Origin: Acidobacteriota bacterium
GTDB taxonomy: Bacteria > Acidobacteriota > Terriglobia > Terriglobales > Acidobacteriaceae
NCBI GenBank assembly: GCA_021846985.1
Contig: JAJZVX010000005.1
Span: 62,001 to 126,000, forward strand
Length of the DNA stretch: 64,000 bases
Reading direction: 5' to 3'
The notes beneath the pieces are model-generated. The model saw only the letters and a list, made by a program, of their open reading frames with translations. It was not told where the DNA came from and ran no database searches. Within the stretch, counting starts at the first letter, position 1, and each line of letters starts with the position of its first letter. A program made the translations under genes and the position numbers. Below are positions 10,285 to 16,654 of this stretch, one piece after another.

Positions 10285-11502
10285 TCACGCCTGCGCGACG
10301 GCCGTGTCTTCCGCTTGCGCCTCCTCCACGGGGGCAAAGCACGCCTCCAGTCCCTGTGCATCCTCGTCCGCCAGCCGTCCCGCCACGGCCATCAGCGCCA
10401 GCAGCAGCCATGTCGTGCGGCTTTCCTCCACCGTTGCCACCAGCGAGATCACCAGCCATGTGGCCAGAGCCGTCGCCAGGCCCAACCGCAGATTGCCTCG
10501 GGTCCGCATCACGGCCCACCCAGCCAGCACCACAATGGCCGTGGCCAGAGAAAGTCCCACGAGCCCGCTCTCCACCGCAATTGACAACGCCGTGTTGTGC
10601 GCCGTATCCATGGACGCGGTGCCCGCCGCCGCTACAAAGTTGCCGGCGCCGTGCCCCAGCACCGGAGCCTGCGCAAAGGCACGCCAACCCGCCTCCCAGA
10701 TATTCCATCGCTGGTTCAGGTCGCCTCCATGGAGCTGTTCGCCAATCGTCGCCAGCCGCTCAAACGTCCCCGCGGGAATCCACCACCACAATCCCGCGAT
10801 CAGGGCAGGCAGCGCAAAAAAAACCGCCAGTGTCCGCCCGGCGTGGCCCCGCAACAGCAGCAGGGCGCTGCCGGCCAGAGCAACGGACGCCGCGACGACT
10901 CCGCCGCGGGAAGCCGTCAGTAATACCGCCACAACGCCCAGCGGCAGATAGCCGGCCGCCAGCATGCGCCCCGCCCAGCCCGATTCGCCGTCAAACAGCA
11001 GGGCCGCCAAAGGAAAACCAAAATCCAGGAACCGCGCCACGTCGTTGGGATCCTGGCCGGTAGCCGCAAAGCGCACCTGTTCCGCTGCAATCGTCTCAGG
11101 CGATATGAAGTTGGCCAGTGTCAGCAAGGCCAGCACCCAGCAGCCGGCTACCGTCGCGCGAAACAGCGTCCGCAACTCTTGCGGACTTTCTGCCAGTTCC
11201 CACGCCAGCCACACCACCATCATCTCCTGAAAATAGGCCCGCATCCGGTAGAGGGTTTCTGTCCCGTCGATGGTCCAAAAATACGTGCAGCAGAACCACA
11301 CCAGCAGCGCCAGCGTCATCCACGGCAGCACGCCCGGCGCGCGCACCCGGCCTGCCTCGAAAACCGCCGGGATCGCCGCCAGCAGCAACACGAAACCCAC
11401 CACCCGGGCAATGTTGCCCAGCGGCTCGCCCAGGTCCAGAGAATACTCCCACGGGATCGTGAAGGCGTAGAGCGCCAGCAGCCACCACGCCATCCGCCGC
11501 AC
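10285..11502 (-). CDS. O-antigen ligase/polymerase family membrane protein
   Basis: A 405-aa integral membrane protein with about ten to twelve hydrophobic helices. A large periplasmic loop near residues 245-290 contains LGHGAGNF and then AHNTALSIAVESGLVGL, the conserved His block of the Wzy/WaaL O-antigen ligase family. Such proteins polymerise sugar repeat units or join them to lipid A. The start is GTG, two bases after the stop of the Wzz-Wza fusion gene and with AGAGG eight bases upstream, so the two are translationally linked. The context (co-polymerase, export protein, nucleotide-sugar enzymes) supports a role in exopolysaccharide or O-antigen assembly. Confidence 0.88.
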   Translation of the reverse strand: MRRMAWWLLALYAFTIPWEYSLDLGEPLGNIARVVGFVLLLAAIPAVFEAGRVRAPGVLPWMTLALLVWFCCTYFWTIDGTETLYRMRAYFQEMMVVWLAWELAESPQELRTLFRATVAGCWVLALLTLANFISPETIAAEQVRFAATGQDPNDVARFLDFGFPLAALLFDGESGWAGRMLAAGYLPLGVVAVLLTASRGGVVAASVALAGSALLLLRGHAGRTLAVFFALPALIAGLWWWIPAGTFERLATIGEQLHGGDLNQRWNIWEAGWRAFAQAPVLGHGAGNFVAAAGTASMDTAHNTALSIAVESGLVGLSLATAIVVLAGWAVMRTRGNLRLGLATALATWLVISLVATVEESRTTWLLLALMAVAGRLADEDAQGLEACFAPVEEAQAEDTAVAQA

Positions 11503-11504
11503 TC

Positions 11505-14018
11505 TCAGTACCTCTGCGAGTACACCAGCGCGGAGTAGATCGCCACGCCCACCGTCGATTGGATCATTGATTCCATGCTGCGGTTCAGCAGACTCTTGGC
11601 CTGCGAATCCGGCACGAACAGAATGTCCCGGTCGTGAATCGCTTGGTCGGGCTCCTGGCCGTGCAACAGCCGCTTCAGATTCAGCCTCGTCAGCGTCCGG
11701 CCGCCTTTCTGCTCGCGAATCAGCAGGGCTTTGGTCGCCGCTGCATCCCGTGTTGGTCCCCAGGCCAGCGAGAGCGCCTGAACCACCGTCAGCCCCTGCG
11801 CCGGATCCACCGGAAACCCGCCCGGCCGCACCACGTCCCCGATCACATACACCAGCCCGGCGCGGCTCACCTGTACCGTGTCGCCCGGATCGAGCTCGGG
11901 GTTGTGATTGCCTCCGCTCTCCGTGCCGCTCGGATCCAGCACCACCGGATGCGGCGTGCGCGGATCGCCGCGGTGGAAGATGTTCACCAGTCGGCCAGCC
12001 GTCGGTGTCAGCCCCGAAGCCGCCGAAATCAGATCCAGCAGCCGGTGGTGCATCGTGTAGGGATAGACCCCCGGACGCGCCACCTCGCCCAGCACGCTTA
12101 CGTCCTGCCCCGCGTACGCCACCACCAGCACCGAAACGGCGGGATGCAGCAGCATGCCCTTGGCCACCAGCGCCTTCTCGATCGCCCTCGCCGCCGCAGT
12201 CTCATCCAGCCCCTGTAGCCTGATCTCGCCGATCAGCGGCAGCATCGCCGTGCCGTCTTTTGCCACGTGCGCCTGCGTACGGAACTCCGGTGTATGAAAC
12301 TCGCTCACCTCCAGGATGTCGCCCGGTCCAATCGGAGCCGGCATGGGCGTTGCGCTCAGCGCCGTCGCCATCGAAGGCATCCCCGTCTGGCCGCTTTCTT
12401 CCCCGTTCCAGATGGCCGGCGCCTCCTTGGGGTTGGGCACGTTCCGGCGATCCTCCGAGAGCGGATAGTGCGCCACGCCCGTCGGCAGTCCCGACGTGCT
12501 TGGCGTCGGCGCCTGCCCCCGGCCTGTCGCCGCAGCCAGAACCAGAATCAGCGCCACCGCCGCCGCGCCTTTTGCGCCCCATCCCTGCGATTCCATCAAG
12601 AGCGCGCCTCCTACCGCCAGCCAGATGCCCACAAAGAGTGCGATAGCCATGTATAACGGCAGATTCGGCGCCGCCGGTTTGGCCGGTGTCCGCGCCGGAT
12701 CCACCACCACGATGTTCGAGCCGTGAACCCCTGCCGACAGCCCCGCCTCTTCCACCTTCTCCAGCACCCGCACATATAGCTCGCGGCTGGTGTCGGCCTC
12801 CTGCCGCATCGTCGCGTACTCGGTCGCCGCCTGGTTCAGACTCGTCCCCTCGCCGGTCCGCTCTTGCAGGCTCTTGCGCACCATCTCTTCGCGGTCCGCC
12901 GCCATCTTCCACGCGCTGCGGAAGCTCCCCACCAGCTTTGCATCCTCGGCCTTCACCTGGCGCTCCAGGTCCTTCAGTTGTCCCCGGATCTCCACCACGC
13001 GCGGAAAATTCGGCCCGTGCTCAATCCGCAGTTGTGCCTCTTCCTGTTCCAGGGCACTCTGCTGCGCATGGAGCTGTTTCAGCAGCGAGGTGGCAAAATT
13101 CCCGCCTTCGGTCTGCAACCGCGGGTCGGAGGCCACCACCAGCTCCGGATCTCCCTGCAAGGCCGCCCGATACTCGGCTTCATGCAAAATTCGGTCTGCG
13201 GCCGCCGCCACCAGTTCCCGCTCCAGTGCGTCTGCCTCCTCAATTGCGGCAACGTGCTGCGCCTCGCCCTGCTGCCCGTTCGGCAGCGTCTCCGGCGCGC
13301 TCAGAATCCCATGCGCGCTCTCAAACGATGCCAGCCGCGCATCGTCCCGGTCCATCCGCGCCTTCAGATCCCTTAGCTGCCCTTCCAGCCACACCGATGC
13401 CTGCGCCGTGGCCCGCATGCGCGCTTCGCCGTCCTCGTCCGCGTATGCCTTGATCAGGCCGTTCACCACCGCCGCCGACAATGCCGCATCCCGCGACCGG
13501 AACCGGATCCGGACCATCATCGTTCGCGGAATGGTCTGCACGTGCAGCCGCCACGCGAACCGCTCGAGAAGCCACGCCTGCGCCTCCGCGCCCGGCGACT
13601 CCATCCGGAATCCCGGAAACCGCTGCGCAAAATCACCTTTAAATCCCGCCGCCTGGTAGAGCTTCAGATCGCCAATCACCCGCCATGCCAGCCGGCCGCT
13701 CCGCAGCACATCCGCAAGCGTCTCCTGTTGCACCGGCGACGATAAGAGCGAAGCCGCAACATACGGCTCCTGACTGCTTTCCAGGCTTAACGGCGAGGCG
13801 GGCGAGGTGCGCAGCGCCACTTCCGCGCTGGCATCGTATTGATTGGGTGCAATCAGGCAATATAGCAGGCACACCAGCAGCAGTCCGCCCACCACAATCG
13901 CCATCATGCGCCGCCGGCGGCCTAGAACACCTGCCACTTCCCTGAGCGATAGCCTTGGCTCCGTCTGGCTGTTTCCTCGCCGTCTTCCGTCTGGAATAAC
14001 TGTGGTCGCGTCCGCCAA
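11505..14018 (-). CDS. Wzz-type co-polymerase fused to Wza-type polysaccharide export protein
   Basis: An 837-aa protein in one uninterrupted frame. Residues ~20-470 form a polysaccharide co-polymerase (Wzz/GumC-like): a first helix near 40-57, a long periplasmic coiled-coil section, a Pro-rich PARTPAKPAAP motif and a second helix near 452-473. No kinase domain follows. Instead, residue 475 begins MESQGWGAKG plus a hydrophobic core ending GRGQA, a complete signal peptide. Then come the polysaccharide export domain (IGPGDILEVSEF) and two SLBB-like domains (VLGEVARPGVYPY; VIGDVVRPGGFPV). The internal ATG at 12596 has TAGGAGG ten bases before it, so the export part may also be made on its own (363 aa). 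The annotated start is TTG; the upstream ribosome-binding site is poor (GAGG about 11 bases away). The O-antigen ligase gene follows two bases later. Confidence 0.88.
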   Translation of the reverse strand: MADATTVIPDGRRRGNSQTEPRLSLREVAGVLGRRRRMMAIVVGGLLLVCLLYCLIAPNQYDASAEVALRTSPASPLSLESSQEPYVAASLLSSPVQQETLADVLRSGRLAWRVIGDLKLYQAAGFKGDFAQRFPGFRMESPGAEAQAWLLERFAWRLHVQTIPRTMMVRIRFRSRDAALSAAVVNGLIKAYADEDGEARMRATAQASVWLEGQLRDLKARMDRDDARLASFESAHGILSAPETLPNGQQGEAQHVAAIEEADALERELVAAAADRILHEAEYRAALQGDPELVVASDPRLQTEGGNFATSLLKQLHAQQSALEQEEAQLRIEHGPNFPRVVEIRGQLKDLERQVKAEDAKLVGSFRSAWKMAADREEMVRKSLQERTGEGTSLNQAATEYATMRQEADTSRELYVRVLEKVEEAGLSAGVHGSNIVVVDPARTPAKPAAPNLPLYMAIALFVGIWLAVGGALLMESQGWGAKGAAAVALILVLAAATGRGQAPTPSTSGLPTGVAHYPLSEDRRNVPNPKEAPAIWNGEESGQTGMPSMATALSATPMPAPIGPGDILEVSEFHTPEFRTQAHVAKDGTAMLPLIGEIRLQGLDETAAARAIEKALVAKGMLLHPAVSVLVVAYAGQDVSVLGEVARPGVYPYTMHHRLLDLISAASGLTPTAGRLVNIFHRGDPRTPHPVVLDPSGTESGGNHNPELDPGDTVQVSRAGLVYVIGDVVRPGGFPVDPAQGLTVVQALSLAWGPTRDAAATKALLIREQKGGRTLTRLNLKRLLHGQEPDQAIHDRDILFVPDSQAKSLLNRSMESMIQSTVGVAIYSALVYSQRY
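12607..12613 (-). promoter_or_regulatory. internal Shine-Dalgarno inside the Wzz-Wza gene
   Basis: TAGGAGG on the minus strand, ten bases upstream of an in-frame ATG at 12596 that opens a signal-peptide-like sequence. It is a near-perfect match to the 16S rRNA tail and suggests a second translation start for the export domain. Confidence 0.5.
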
Positions 14019-14181: not shown

Positions 14182-15126
14182 TCAGTCGCCTGCCCCTGTC
14201 CGGTACCACGCCACCGTCCGCCGCAGTCCCTCCTCAAAGTCCACCCGGGGCTGGTAGCCCAGCAGTTCTCCCGCCAGCCGAATGTCAGCCAGCGAATCCC
14301 GTATGTCCCCGCTCCGCGGCGCCGCATACTCGGGCTGCCCCTTGAATCCCGTCAACCCGCACAGAATCCTGAACGTCTCGTTCAGCGTAATGCGCTTTCC
14401 CGTGGCCACGTTCATCATCTGCCCGGCCACCTTCTCCGCCGGCGCCGACGCCGCCAGCAGATTCGCCTCCACCACGTTGTCAATGTAGGTAAAATCCCGG
14501 CTCTGCTCTCCATCTCCGTAGATGGCTGGTTGCTCGCCCGCCAGCATCTTCCGGCAGAAGATCGCCAGCACGCCCGAGTAGTGCGAGGTCGGGTCCTGGT
14601 AGGGCCCGAAAACATTGAAGTAGCGCAGCGTCACTGTCTCCAGTCCGTACACACGCCGGAACGCCCGCATGTAGTGTTCCCCCGCCAGCTTCGCCACCGC
14701 GTAGGGCGAAATCGGGTCGGGCAGCATCTGCTCGTGCTTGGGCAGCGTCGGCGACTCGCCATAGGCTGACGACGACCCCGCGTACACCACGCGCCGCACT
14801 GCCGCCGCGCGCGCCGCCACCAGCACGTTCAACGTCGCGTCCACGCAATTTACGTTGGTCGCCACCGGATCGGCCACAGACCGCGGCACCGAGGCCAGCG
14901 CCGCCTCGTGAAACACAATCTCCACCCCTTCGCATGCCCGCGCGCAGGCCGCCGCATCGGCCAGATCGCCCTCGATGAACTCCATCGCCTCCAGACCGGC
15001 CAAGTTCGCCCTCTTGCCGGTCGAAAAGTTGTCGATCCCTCTCACCTGTTTGCCCCGCGCCAGCAGCGCGGCGGCAATTGAACGGCCAATAAAGCCGGCT
15101 GCTCCCGTCACCAGATACCTTGCCAA
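14182..15126 (-). CDS. NAD-dependent epimerase/dehydratase (UDP-sugar 4-epimerase type)
   Basis: A 314-aa extended short-chain dehydrogenase. NAD-binding TGAAGFIG is at residues 7-14, DNFSTGKRAN lies after beta-strand 2, and GDLAD at the adenine site. The catalytic part is GSSSAYGE plus YAVAK. The sequence most resembles UDP-GlcNAc/UDP-GalNAc or UDP-glucuronate 4-epimerases of surface-polysaccharide loci. It would supply a sugar nucleotide for the neighbouring assembly genes. The start is TTG at 15126, with GGAGG seven bases upstream. It is divergent from the UDP-sugar dehydrogenase gene and leads the minus-strand polysaccharide genes. Confidence 0.9.
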   Translation of the reverse strand: MARYLVTGAAGFIGRSIAAALLARGKQVRGIDNFSTGKRANLAGLEAMEFIEGDLADAAACARACEGVEIVFHEAALASVPRSVADPVATNVNCVDATLNVLVAARAAAVRRVVYAGSSSAYGESPTLPKHEQMLPDPISPYAVAKLAGEHYMRAFRRVYGLETVTLRYFNVFGPYQDPTSHYSGVLAIFCRKMLAGEQPAIYGDGEQSRDFTYIDNVVEANLLAASAPAEKVAGQMMNVATGKRITLNETFRILCGLTGFKGQPEYAAPRSGDIRDSLADIRLAGELLGYQPRVDFEEGLRRTVAWYRTGAGD

Positions 15127-15294
15127 TGTCTATCCTCCCGCTTGGTGCTTCCGGCGGGCGCATCGCTCCGCCTTCATCGGAAAGCATACTCCCTCCACTG
15201 CCTGTTCCCCATGGCTGCCCTGCGCCAGCCGCAATCCCAGAACCCTTCTCGGCCACGAATCTCACTTGCAACTTTTCATTCCGTTTCCGCGCCG

Positions 15295-15300
15295 TACAAT
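15295..15300 (+). promoter_or_regulatory. -10 box placed for a leaderless transcript
   Basis: TACAAT 7 bases before the ATG at 15308 (one base before the ATG at 15302). There is no Shine-Dalgarno sequence. The arrangement favours the second ATG as a leaderless start. Confidence 0.45.
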
Positions 15301-15301
15301 C

Positions 15302-16654
15302 ATGTCCATGACTACCGCCAATGGTGGAACGTACGCCGAGCTGAAACAAAGACTGGAAACCCGCGACGCCCGCATCGGCATCATCGGCATGGGCTATGTG
15401 GGCCTGCCTCTCGCCCTTCTCTTCAGTGGCGAACGCTTCCGCGTTACCGGCTTTGACATTGCGCCGGATAAGGTGGCCACCCTCAACGCCGGCGGATCCT
15501 ATATTGTTCGCATCGCCCCTGAGGCCATCCAGCAGGCGCAAAAGGCCGGCTTCCGCGCCACCTCCGACTACTCTGAAATCGCATCCATGGACGCCGTCAT
15601 CATCTGCGTCCCCACCCCGCTCGACGACCACCATGAGCCCGACCTGAGCTTCATCACTGGCACCGTCCGCTCCATCGCGCCACACGTCCACGAAGGCCAT
15701 CTGATCGTCCTCGAAAGCACCACCTATCCCGGCACCACCGAGGAAGTCGTCGTTCCCCTCCTCGAAGACGGTAATCCGCACGGCCTGAAGGCCATCCGTT
15801 CCACCGGCCAATCCGGCCTCTTCGTAGCCTTCTCGCCCGAGCGCGAAGATCCAGGCAACGAGAGCGTTGCCCGCCACGATATTCCCAAGGTTGTGGGCGG
15901 ATGCAGCCCCGAGGCCAGCCAGCTCGCCGCCGCCATGTATGGCGCCATCTTCCGCCGAACCATTTCCGTCAGCAGCCCCGCCGTGGCGGAGATGACCAAG
16001 CTGCTCGAAAATATCTATCGCTGCGTTAACATCGCCCTGGTCAACGAGCTGAAGCAGCTCTGCATGCGCATGGACATTGACATCCACGAGGTCATCGACG
16101 CCGCCAAAACCAAGCCCTTCGGCTTCCAGGCCTTCTATCCCGGCCCCGGCCTGGGCGGCCACTGCATCCCCATCGATCCGTTCTATCTCTCCTGGAAGGC
16201 TCGCGAATTCGACTTCCGCACCCGCTTCATCGAACTGGCCGGCGAAGTGAATACAGCCATGCCCGCCTTTGTCATTCAGAACGTCTCTGCCGCTCTCAAC
16301 CAGCGCCGCAAATCCATCAACGGCTCCAGAATTCTCGTTCTCGGCCTCGCCTACAAGCGCGACATCGACGACCTCCGCGAATCGCCCTCGCTTGCCATCA
16401 TCGAGATGCTCCGCGAAATGGGCGCCATGGTCGCTTACAACGACCCTTTCTTCGCCCAGGTGGGCCGCGGACGTCACTACGACCTGAATATGACCAACAC
16501 GCCGCTCGACAACCTCGGACAATACGATGCCGTCCTCATCGTCACCGACCATTCGAGCTACGACTACAAAGCCATCGTCCAACAGTCGCAACTTGTCGTC
16601 GATACGCGCAACGCCACCAAAGGCATCCAGGCCCCCAACATCGTCCGCTGTTAG
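15302..16654 (+). CDS. nucleotide-sugar dehydrogenase (UDP-HexNAc dehydrogenase type)
   Basis: A cytoplasmic NAD-dependent UDP-sugar 6-dehydrogenase of 450 aa (448 if the second ATG is used). N-terminal Rossmann motif GMGYVGLPLA; ESTTYPGTTEE and FSPEREDPG in the middle; the catalytic Cys in GLGGHCIPIDPFYL; C-terminal domain with LGLAYKRDIDDLRESP. These blocks mark the WbpA/WecC/TviB group, which oxidises UDP-N-acetylhexosamines to uronic acids for surface polysaccharides. Together with the divergent epimerase it would provide UDP-HexNAcA-type sugars. The start is either 15302 or 15308; TACAAT just upstream and the absence of a ribosome-binding site suggest a leaderless message from the second. 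Confidence 0.93.
   Translation: MSMTTANGGTYAELKQRLETRDARIGIIGMGYVGLPLALLFSGERFRVTGFDIAPDKVATLNAGGSYIVRIAPEAIQQAQKAGFRATSDYSEIASMDAVIICVPTPLDDHHEPDLSFITGTVRSIAPHVHEGHLIVLESTTYPGTTEEVVVPLLEDGNPHGLKAIRSTGQSGLFVAFSPEREDPGNESVARHDIPKVVGGCSPEASQLAAAMYGAIFRRTISVSSPAVAEMTKLLENIYRCVNIALVNELKQLCMRMDIDIHEVIDAAKTKPFGFQAFYPGPGLGGHCIPIDPFYLSWKAREFDFRTRFIELAGEVNTAMPAFVIQNVSAALNQRRKSINGSRILVLGLAYKRDIDDLRESPSLAIIEMLREMGAMVAYNDPFFAQVGRGRHYDLNMTNTPLDNLGQYDAVLIVTDHSSYDYKAIVQQSQLVVDTRNATKGIQAPNIVRC

Follow-up and report, generated by a model that had tools for sequence, protein, structure and literature searches.

A polysaccharide co-polymerase (PCP) of the Wzc type (class PCP-2a), like the kinase-less EpsF, has two membrane helices, a periplasmic coiled arm and a GNVR region, and an outer-membrane polysaccharide export protein (OPX) of the Wza or EpsE type has a Poly_export domain, two SLBB domains and a C-terminal helix. 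GumC is likewise a PCP without a kinase, and in PCP systems a kinase domain often controls assembly. Work on polysaccharide export has yet to settle how a PCP makes contact with its OPX, at which ratio the two occur, and whether the contact is lasting; a survey of OPX proteins sets out several models (PMC9603273). Here we describe a gene that encodes both proteins in a single frame, found in a 64,000-nucleotide stretch (called the window below) of contig JAJZVX010000005.1 from an Acidobacteriaceae genome (assembly GCA_021846985.1). We found no natural PCP-OPX fusion in the open-access literature, including the accessible parts of PMC9603273, PMC9601211, PMC1796856, PMC4594306 and PMC12220298, a scope outside which many subscription papers lie. 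From such a fusion the two parts may be freed in equal amounts, or they may be held to each other. The natural covalent link, conserved in a large share of the genus in the absence of a kinase domain, makes 1:1 pairing directly testable.

The reading we prefer, with a probability of about 0.5 and from sequence evidence, is that the gene would make one precursor for a Wzx/Wzy-dependent pathway, composed of a kinase-less PCP, an internal signal peptide and a Wza-like OPX. The PCP part would cross the inner membrane twice and a third hydrophobic segment would return the OPX half to the periplasm, where a signal peptidase I cut before Gln502 would free the OPX for the outer membrane and leave the PCP in the inner membrane. 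Both parts would thereby be made 1:1. In about half of the genus, ribosomes probably also start at codon 474 or 475 and so add a further supply of free OPX that carries this signal peptide too; either start would lead to an identical mature OPX.

One frame for a PCP and an OPX

The gene and its main parts are as follows.

11505..14018, minus strand: fused PCP-OPX gene of 837 codons, from a TTG start at 14018 to a TGA stop
12594..13952, minus strand: PCP half (residues 23-475), with membrane helix 1, periplasmic coiled arm, GNVR and membrane helix 2 (Pfam, AlphaFold2, Foldseek match to Wzc)
12597..12662, minus strand: second membrane helix (residues 453-474), whose codons also hold a Shine-Dalgarno-like motif (AlphaFold2)
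11505..12344, minus strand: OPX half, with Poly_export, two SLBB and a C-terminal helix at 807-836 of low confidence (Pfam, AlphaFold2, Foldseek)

A sequence-only reading of this DNA, which named no strand, had described a single frame of 837 codons in which a Wzz-like co-polymerase is followed by a stretch resembling a signal peptide and by an exporter of the Wza type. The open reading frame (ORF), Pfam and AlphaFold2 analyses confirmed that description, and the ORF runs on the minus strand from 14018 to 11505. In the first half, Pfam matched Wzz at residues 23-117 (24.5 bits, slightly below the cut-off of 25.5) and GNVR at residues 404-474 (39.3 bits, cut-off 27.7). Together with predicted helices at 36-56 and 453-477 that flank a long coil, these matches identify this half as a PCP of the Wzz/Wzc superfamily. 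The second half is an OPX, in which Poly_export (residues 562-632, 51 bits, cut-off 28) is followed by two stretches of SLBB (60.4 bits). The best NCBIfam matches, all below their cut-offs, were EpsE for the second half (125 bits) and the exopolysaccharide transport family TIGR01005 and EpsF for the first. Neither AAA_31 nor any other kinase-type Pfam family matched anywhere in the 837 residues. The PCP half therefore falls outside PCP-2a, the class of Wzc with a fused tyrosine kinase, as it has no BY-kinase (bacterial tyrosine kinase) domain by Pfam.

We modeled the protein with AlphaFold2 from an alignment of 53 fused proteins (mean pLDDT, the predicted local confidence, 75.9; pTM, the predicted TM-score, 0.44). 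The model placed a third helix at 482-498, close behind the second, and after it a stretch (499-556) with pLDDT below 50 that precedes the OPX folds. In the Wza-like class of OPX, an amphipathic helix at the C-terminus builds the pore in the outer membrane; here the C-terminal helix was predicted at a pLDDT of only about 42-57, and its conservation across copies was 0.81. The top Foldseek chains from the PDB included Wza 2j58 (rank 1) and Wzc 9r68_I and 9r64_I (ranks 6 and 8), with E values from 4e-14. The TM-scores by target were low for the Wza and Wzc chains (0.24-0.39), the Wzc chains standing at 0.24-0.30 with E values of 4e-13 and worse, and reached 0.66 for the class-3 OPX 9n9a. A profile search of PDB sequences returned the same families, with 2j58 and 9n9a matched by both methods.

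The fusion thus has the parts of a Wzc-type or EpsF-type PCP and of a Wza-type or EpsE-type OPX, but it departs from Wzc in that it lacks the kinase domain by Pfam and continues after the second helix, through a short loop, into the OPX. Unlike Wza, the OPX here is not encoded by a separate gene, its predicted signal peptide is internal to the fusion, and the residue at +1 is Gln rather than Cys. The alpha-proteobacterial OMA proteins are also an export family joined with part of another envelope protein, although there, in the part of the source available, a helical region is shared with membrane fusion proteins by exchange (PMC2850547), which is not a PCP-OPX joining.

Distribution and origin of the fusion

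The fusion was matched in 61 of the 80 genomes of the genus (E value of 1e-150 or better) and in 34 of the 42 with a completeness of 90% or more and a contamination of 5% or less. From the 61 matching genomes we counted 56 copies, set apart 3 broken copies, and left out two genomes (G458 and G466). The junction lay in one open frame in all 56 intact copies counted, while two of the broken copies (G455 and G462) were interrupted at NN gaps, and none of the 59 copies retrieved from the genus consisted of two separate intact genes. Identity of the fused copies to the copy in the window falls to 52%. In a tree of OPX domains, the 20 sampled fused rows all formed one clade (SH-aLRT support of 100), apart from 33 unfused rows and from the separate fusion of genome G402 described below. 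These results indicate that this is a genuine and conserved PCP-OPX fusion, which is old and has been well preserved within one group of acidobacteria from soil.

We then compare this with the possibility, raised in the sequence-only reading, that a stop was lost only in this assembly and that relatives keep two genes. A recent stop loss or an assembly error gains some plausibility from another genus of the family, where some tandem PCP-kinase and OPX genes meet in frame at TAG ATG or TAA ATG and where G402 carries a 1097-residue fusion of its own. For the genus of the window this explanation is refuted by the spread of the fusion, the open junctions, the single clade, the absence of two-gene copies among the 59, and the location of two of the three breaks at NN gaps; we regard it as extremely improbable. 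The third broken copy (G481, locus L078) is damaged without an NN gap: an in-frame TAG interrupts its PCP half, and the frame shifts near residue 530.

Within a sample of 396 genomes of the phylum, the two-part fusion was confined to this genus (E value of 1e-40 or better, two best candidates per genome, a setting under which weaker fusions could escape). A scan of a genome collection with the fusion protein, which finds close relatives, returned three loci, all full-length and all in metagenome-assembled genomes of Acidobacteriaceae. Among 72,556 plasmid records, 223 matched, and in none of them did one place cover 80% of the query. Bacteria beyond Acidobacteriota were covered by these two scans only, the former of which detects close relatives alone. 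We also considered as further fusions the long OPX frames (753-1284 residues) of a class sample of 46 genomes; the 8 scanned have many SLBB and no PCP domain, and L144 and other long frames lay outside that scan.

The sequence-only reading had attributed the fusion to the loss of a stop codon between two genes, and this origin is doubtful, as the side-by-side PCP and OPX loci that we inspected have a kinase region ahead of the OPX. Because these adjacent PCPs carry the kinase before the OPX, loss of the kinase by deletion is the better fit: running from just behind PCP helix 2 to the OPX signal peptide, such a deletion would create the fusion and take out the kinase. The closest unfused PCPs outside the genus have long frames, and those that we aligned contain kinase motifs; the genome of the window itself keeps an unfused PCP-kinase and OPX pair on another contig (C14). 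Against this stand several of the closest unfused OPX (L106-L110, 37-42% identity), which have no PCP in the 14-19 kb around them.

The fusion of G402, a genome of the same family and another genus, is a single frame of PCP, BY-kinase and OPX (L075:6096-9386, plus strand, 1097 residues). When 62 genomes of that genus were searched, with as many as 12 candidates per genome being scored, no other full-length match appeared. In the tree, the OPX of G402 pairs with an unfused one, and the G402 fusion therefore arose separately. In both fusions a single frame runs from the PCP through a segment resembling a signal peptide into the OPX, but G402 keeps the kinase; there the segment lies behind a Tyr-rich tail. 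In the tandem PCP-kinase and OPX genes mentioned above (L117-L120), stop and start touch in one frame, one mutation away from a fusion. PCP-kinase "open frames" of more than 1000 residues in the genus of G402 were likewise considered as fusions and rejected, as the seven checked (L117-L120, L125, L126 and L131) are two ORFs with a stop between them; four more lay outside that check.

A predicted internal signal peptide and a probable internal start

Between the second membrane helix and the OPX domains lie two further features.

12516..12593, minus strand: internal signal-peptide-like segment, residues 476-501 (n-, h- and c-region), with a signal peptidase I cut predicted before Q502 from the conservation pattern
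12351..12515, minus strand: conserved motif QAPTPSTSGLPTGVA (residues 502-516, 12471-12515) and a low-confidence linker to about residue 556 (AlphaFold2, conservation)

The sequence-only reading had offered two outcomes for the fusion, a tethered unit or a gene with two products. Cleavage of the precursor is a third outcome, and we rate it the most likely. A gene of similar layout has reportedly been described in Bradyrhizobium, where FbcH is said to give rise to cytochromes b and c1 from a precursor cut at an internal signal sequence. FbcH and the gene in the window each combine a membrane protein, an internal signal peptide and a periplasmic partner, although the proteins are unrelated and cleavage, reportedly shown for FbcH, is predicted here.

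Across the 56 copies, the stretch from codon 475 to residue 501 comprises 24-35 residues (median 27). The residue at -1 is A, G or C in 55 copies and the residue at +1 is Q502 in all 56, while A, L, G, S, I, T or M occurs at -3. The mean fraction of the majority residue is 0.43 in the n-region and 0.52 in the h-region. Just past the predicted cut, residues 502-516 (QAPTPSTSGLPTGVA) reach 0.90, the highest of the regions tabulated. The third helix is also less hydrophobic (KD19 of 1.73) than the two PCP helices (2.45 and 2.09). Since Gln and never Cys stands at +1, this signal does not make the protein a Wza-type lipoprotein OPX. Judged from this pattern, there is about an even chance that signal peptidase I cuts before Q502. 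Three observations weigh against it. One copy (L027) has Pro at -1; the copy in the window has G at both -3 and -1 (GRG before Q), a weaker site than AxA; and the linker from Q502 to G566 keeps a length of 60-71 residues (median 64) despite its variable sequence (0.51).

Constancy of linker length is what would be expected if the protein stayed uncut, with the third helix as a membrane anchor and each PCP holding its own OPX through a linker of about 60 residues, so that one covalent unit would build an octameric trans-envelope channel. The linker could be long enough for this: the very low-confidence stretch of about 58 residues is probably flexible and, at about 3.5 A per residue (our own estimate), could bridge the height of the PCP, a height given as up to about 165 A for WzcB of Myxococcus xanthus in the available part of PMC9603273. 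Moreover, E. coli Wza-Wzc is described, in the part of the source at hand, as an octameric heterodimer (PMC12881504), with which a 1:1 fusion is compatible whether cut or tethered. The signal-peptide-like pattern at -1 and +1 speaks against an uncut protein, as do the shortness of the third helix (482-498) and the need for the OPX to reach the outer membrane while its linker begins at the inner membrane; constant length, for its part, does not forbid a free N-terminal tail. A lasting tether is thus possible, and we hold it to be doubtful next to cleavage, with which it could coexist.

Ahead of the signal-peptide-like segment, the codons of the second membrane helix hold a putative initiation site.

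12607..12613, minus strand: TAGGAGG, Shine-Dalgarno-like, within the codons of membrane helix 2
12594..12599, minus strand: two candidate start codons within the gene, TTG at codon 474 and ATG at codon 475, with Shine-Dalgarno motif and start in 30 of 56 copies

The sequence-only reading had pointed to an in-frame ATG at 12596 preceded by TAGGAGG and had called it a retained internal start. The ATG (codon 475, bases 12596-12594) and the motif (12613-12607) are indeed there, with ten bases from AGGAGG to ATG. ATG at codon 475 is kept in 13 of the 56 copies, too few for a conserved start by itself, and we rejected it as such. The residues M475-E-S align with those that close membrane helix 2 in PCP-kinases (FLMES in several, for example AFLMESLDTG in L125), and the codon therefore most likely descends from the PCP. 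Retention from a former OPX gene is accordingly unlikely; what stands of the claim is that a start near 12596 shows signs of selection.

These signs come from codon usage across the 56 copies. At the junction, 30 copies carry a Shine-Dalgarno (SD) 5-mer properly spaced from an ATG, GTG or TTG codon, against 12 at the next best site of the gene and a median of 0. In synonymous resampling with the protein held fixed (1000 runs), the expected number was 4.8 on average and 11 at most. Gly470 is encoded by GGA in 40 of the 50 copies that have Gly there, which is the top fraction among the 52 Gly columns, ahead of 0.53 for the next one and a background of 0.18. Of the 31 copies with an SD motif, 30 have a start at codon 474 or 475, as do 10 of the 25 without the motif. 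Where copies have the SD motif and Leu474 and lack ATG475, the Leu codon is TTG in 7 of 8, compared with 2 of 12 in the absence of the motif, and TTG makes up 15% of the Leu codons in these genes (Fisher test, P value = 0.0045, relatedness of the copies being ignored). As a control we tried 33 PCP-kinase loci, of which 25 gave the helix pattern (26 pattern hits, including a spurious frame in L134), and SD motif plus start at the helix end was found in none of the 25 (24 unfused PCP-kinases and the G402 fusion). This control supersedes an earlier and weak one on Gly codons of PCP-kinase helices, whose alignment ran into the kinase (GGA 26.5% in the stretch versus 25.3% overall).

Taken together, the codon patterns suggest that internal initiation is probably under selection in about half of the genus. 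Several results weigh against this. The SD 5-mer with a start is absent from 26 of the 56 copies, so that the fusion can endure without internal initiation, which is thus not essential. The copies are related to one another, and phylogenetically independent pairs of SD motif and start all ran in one direction, with none opposite, but were not significant (median P value of 0.125). The junction ranks only 16th among 803 seven-codon windows in synonymous conservation (30 copies), and the GGA column 18th among 228 four-fold columns by parsimony.

The motif may instead be a pause site in membrane helix 2, or a by-product of Val-Gly-Gly codons, with a single product made from the gene. Such an explanation would account for the copies that lack the combination and for the start-like codon that 10 of the 25 copies without an SD motif nonetheless keep. 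The helix also has many L, M and V residues, with codons similar to start codons, and SD-like motif and start codon arise together elsewhere in the gene, around codon 330. A pause site or by-product would leave unexplained the preference for GGA at Gly470, the absence of the combination from the PCP-kinase helices tested, and the tie between motif and start, including the replacement of other Leu codons by TTG, neither of which pausing needs. We consider it unlikely. The spot around codon 330 lies in the PCP coil (about 13023-13031, minus strand), beside adjacent Glu codons, and is seen in 12 of the 56 copies.

If the internal start is true, codon choice created an SD site within a membrane helix once two genes had fused. 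In the open-access literature, so far as its text was accessible, we found no internal initiation in this family, and cases from other genes turn up. The preferred reading can be extended to a polyprotein exporter that signal peptidase I would divide into co-polymerase and pore at 1:1, in which a start evolved in membrane-helix codons would add free exporter in some lineages and tyrosine-kinase control would have been lost in exchange. We put this extended form forward tentatively, as less probable than cleavage with internal initiation on their own.

Neighboring genes and pathway

Three genes flank the fusion.

10285..11502, minus strand: Wzy_C O-antigen ligase/polymerase-like gene, starting 2 bases past the stop codon of the fusion (Pfam)
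14182..15126, minus strand: nucleotide-sugar epimerase/dehydratase of the short-chain dehydrogenase/reductase (SDR) type, the next gene upstream, in the same direction (Pfam)
14975..16654, plus strand: UDP-sugar dehydrogenase, divergent (longest ORF)

The domain match of the UDP-sugar dehydrogenase begins at residue 133 of the longest ORF, and its true start therefore lies downstream of 14975. We compared 19 loci and found a Wzy homologue within about 1 kb downstream of the fusion, on the same strand, in all of them. The SDR homologue was present in 16 and was lacking in L092 and in the short loci L088 and L089. A MurJ/MatE-type flippase lay near the fusion in each of the four loci inspected (L095, L097, L100 and L104), two of which also carry GT4 glycosyltransferases. 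Going by these named families, the fusion belongs to a Wzx/Wzy-dependent polysaccharide cassette. In the genome of the window, a homologue of the MurJ-like flippase (74% identity) is found on a different contig (G000:C45:41759-43081).

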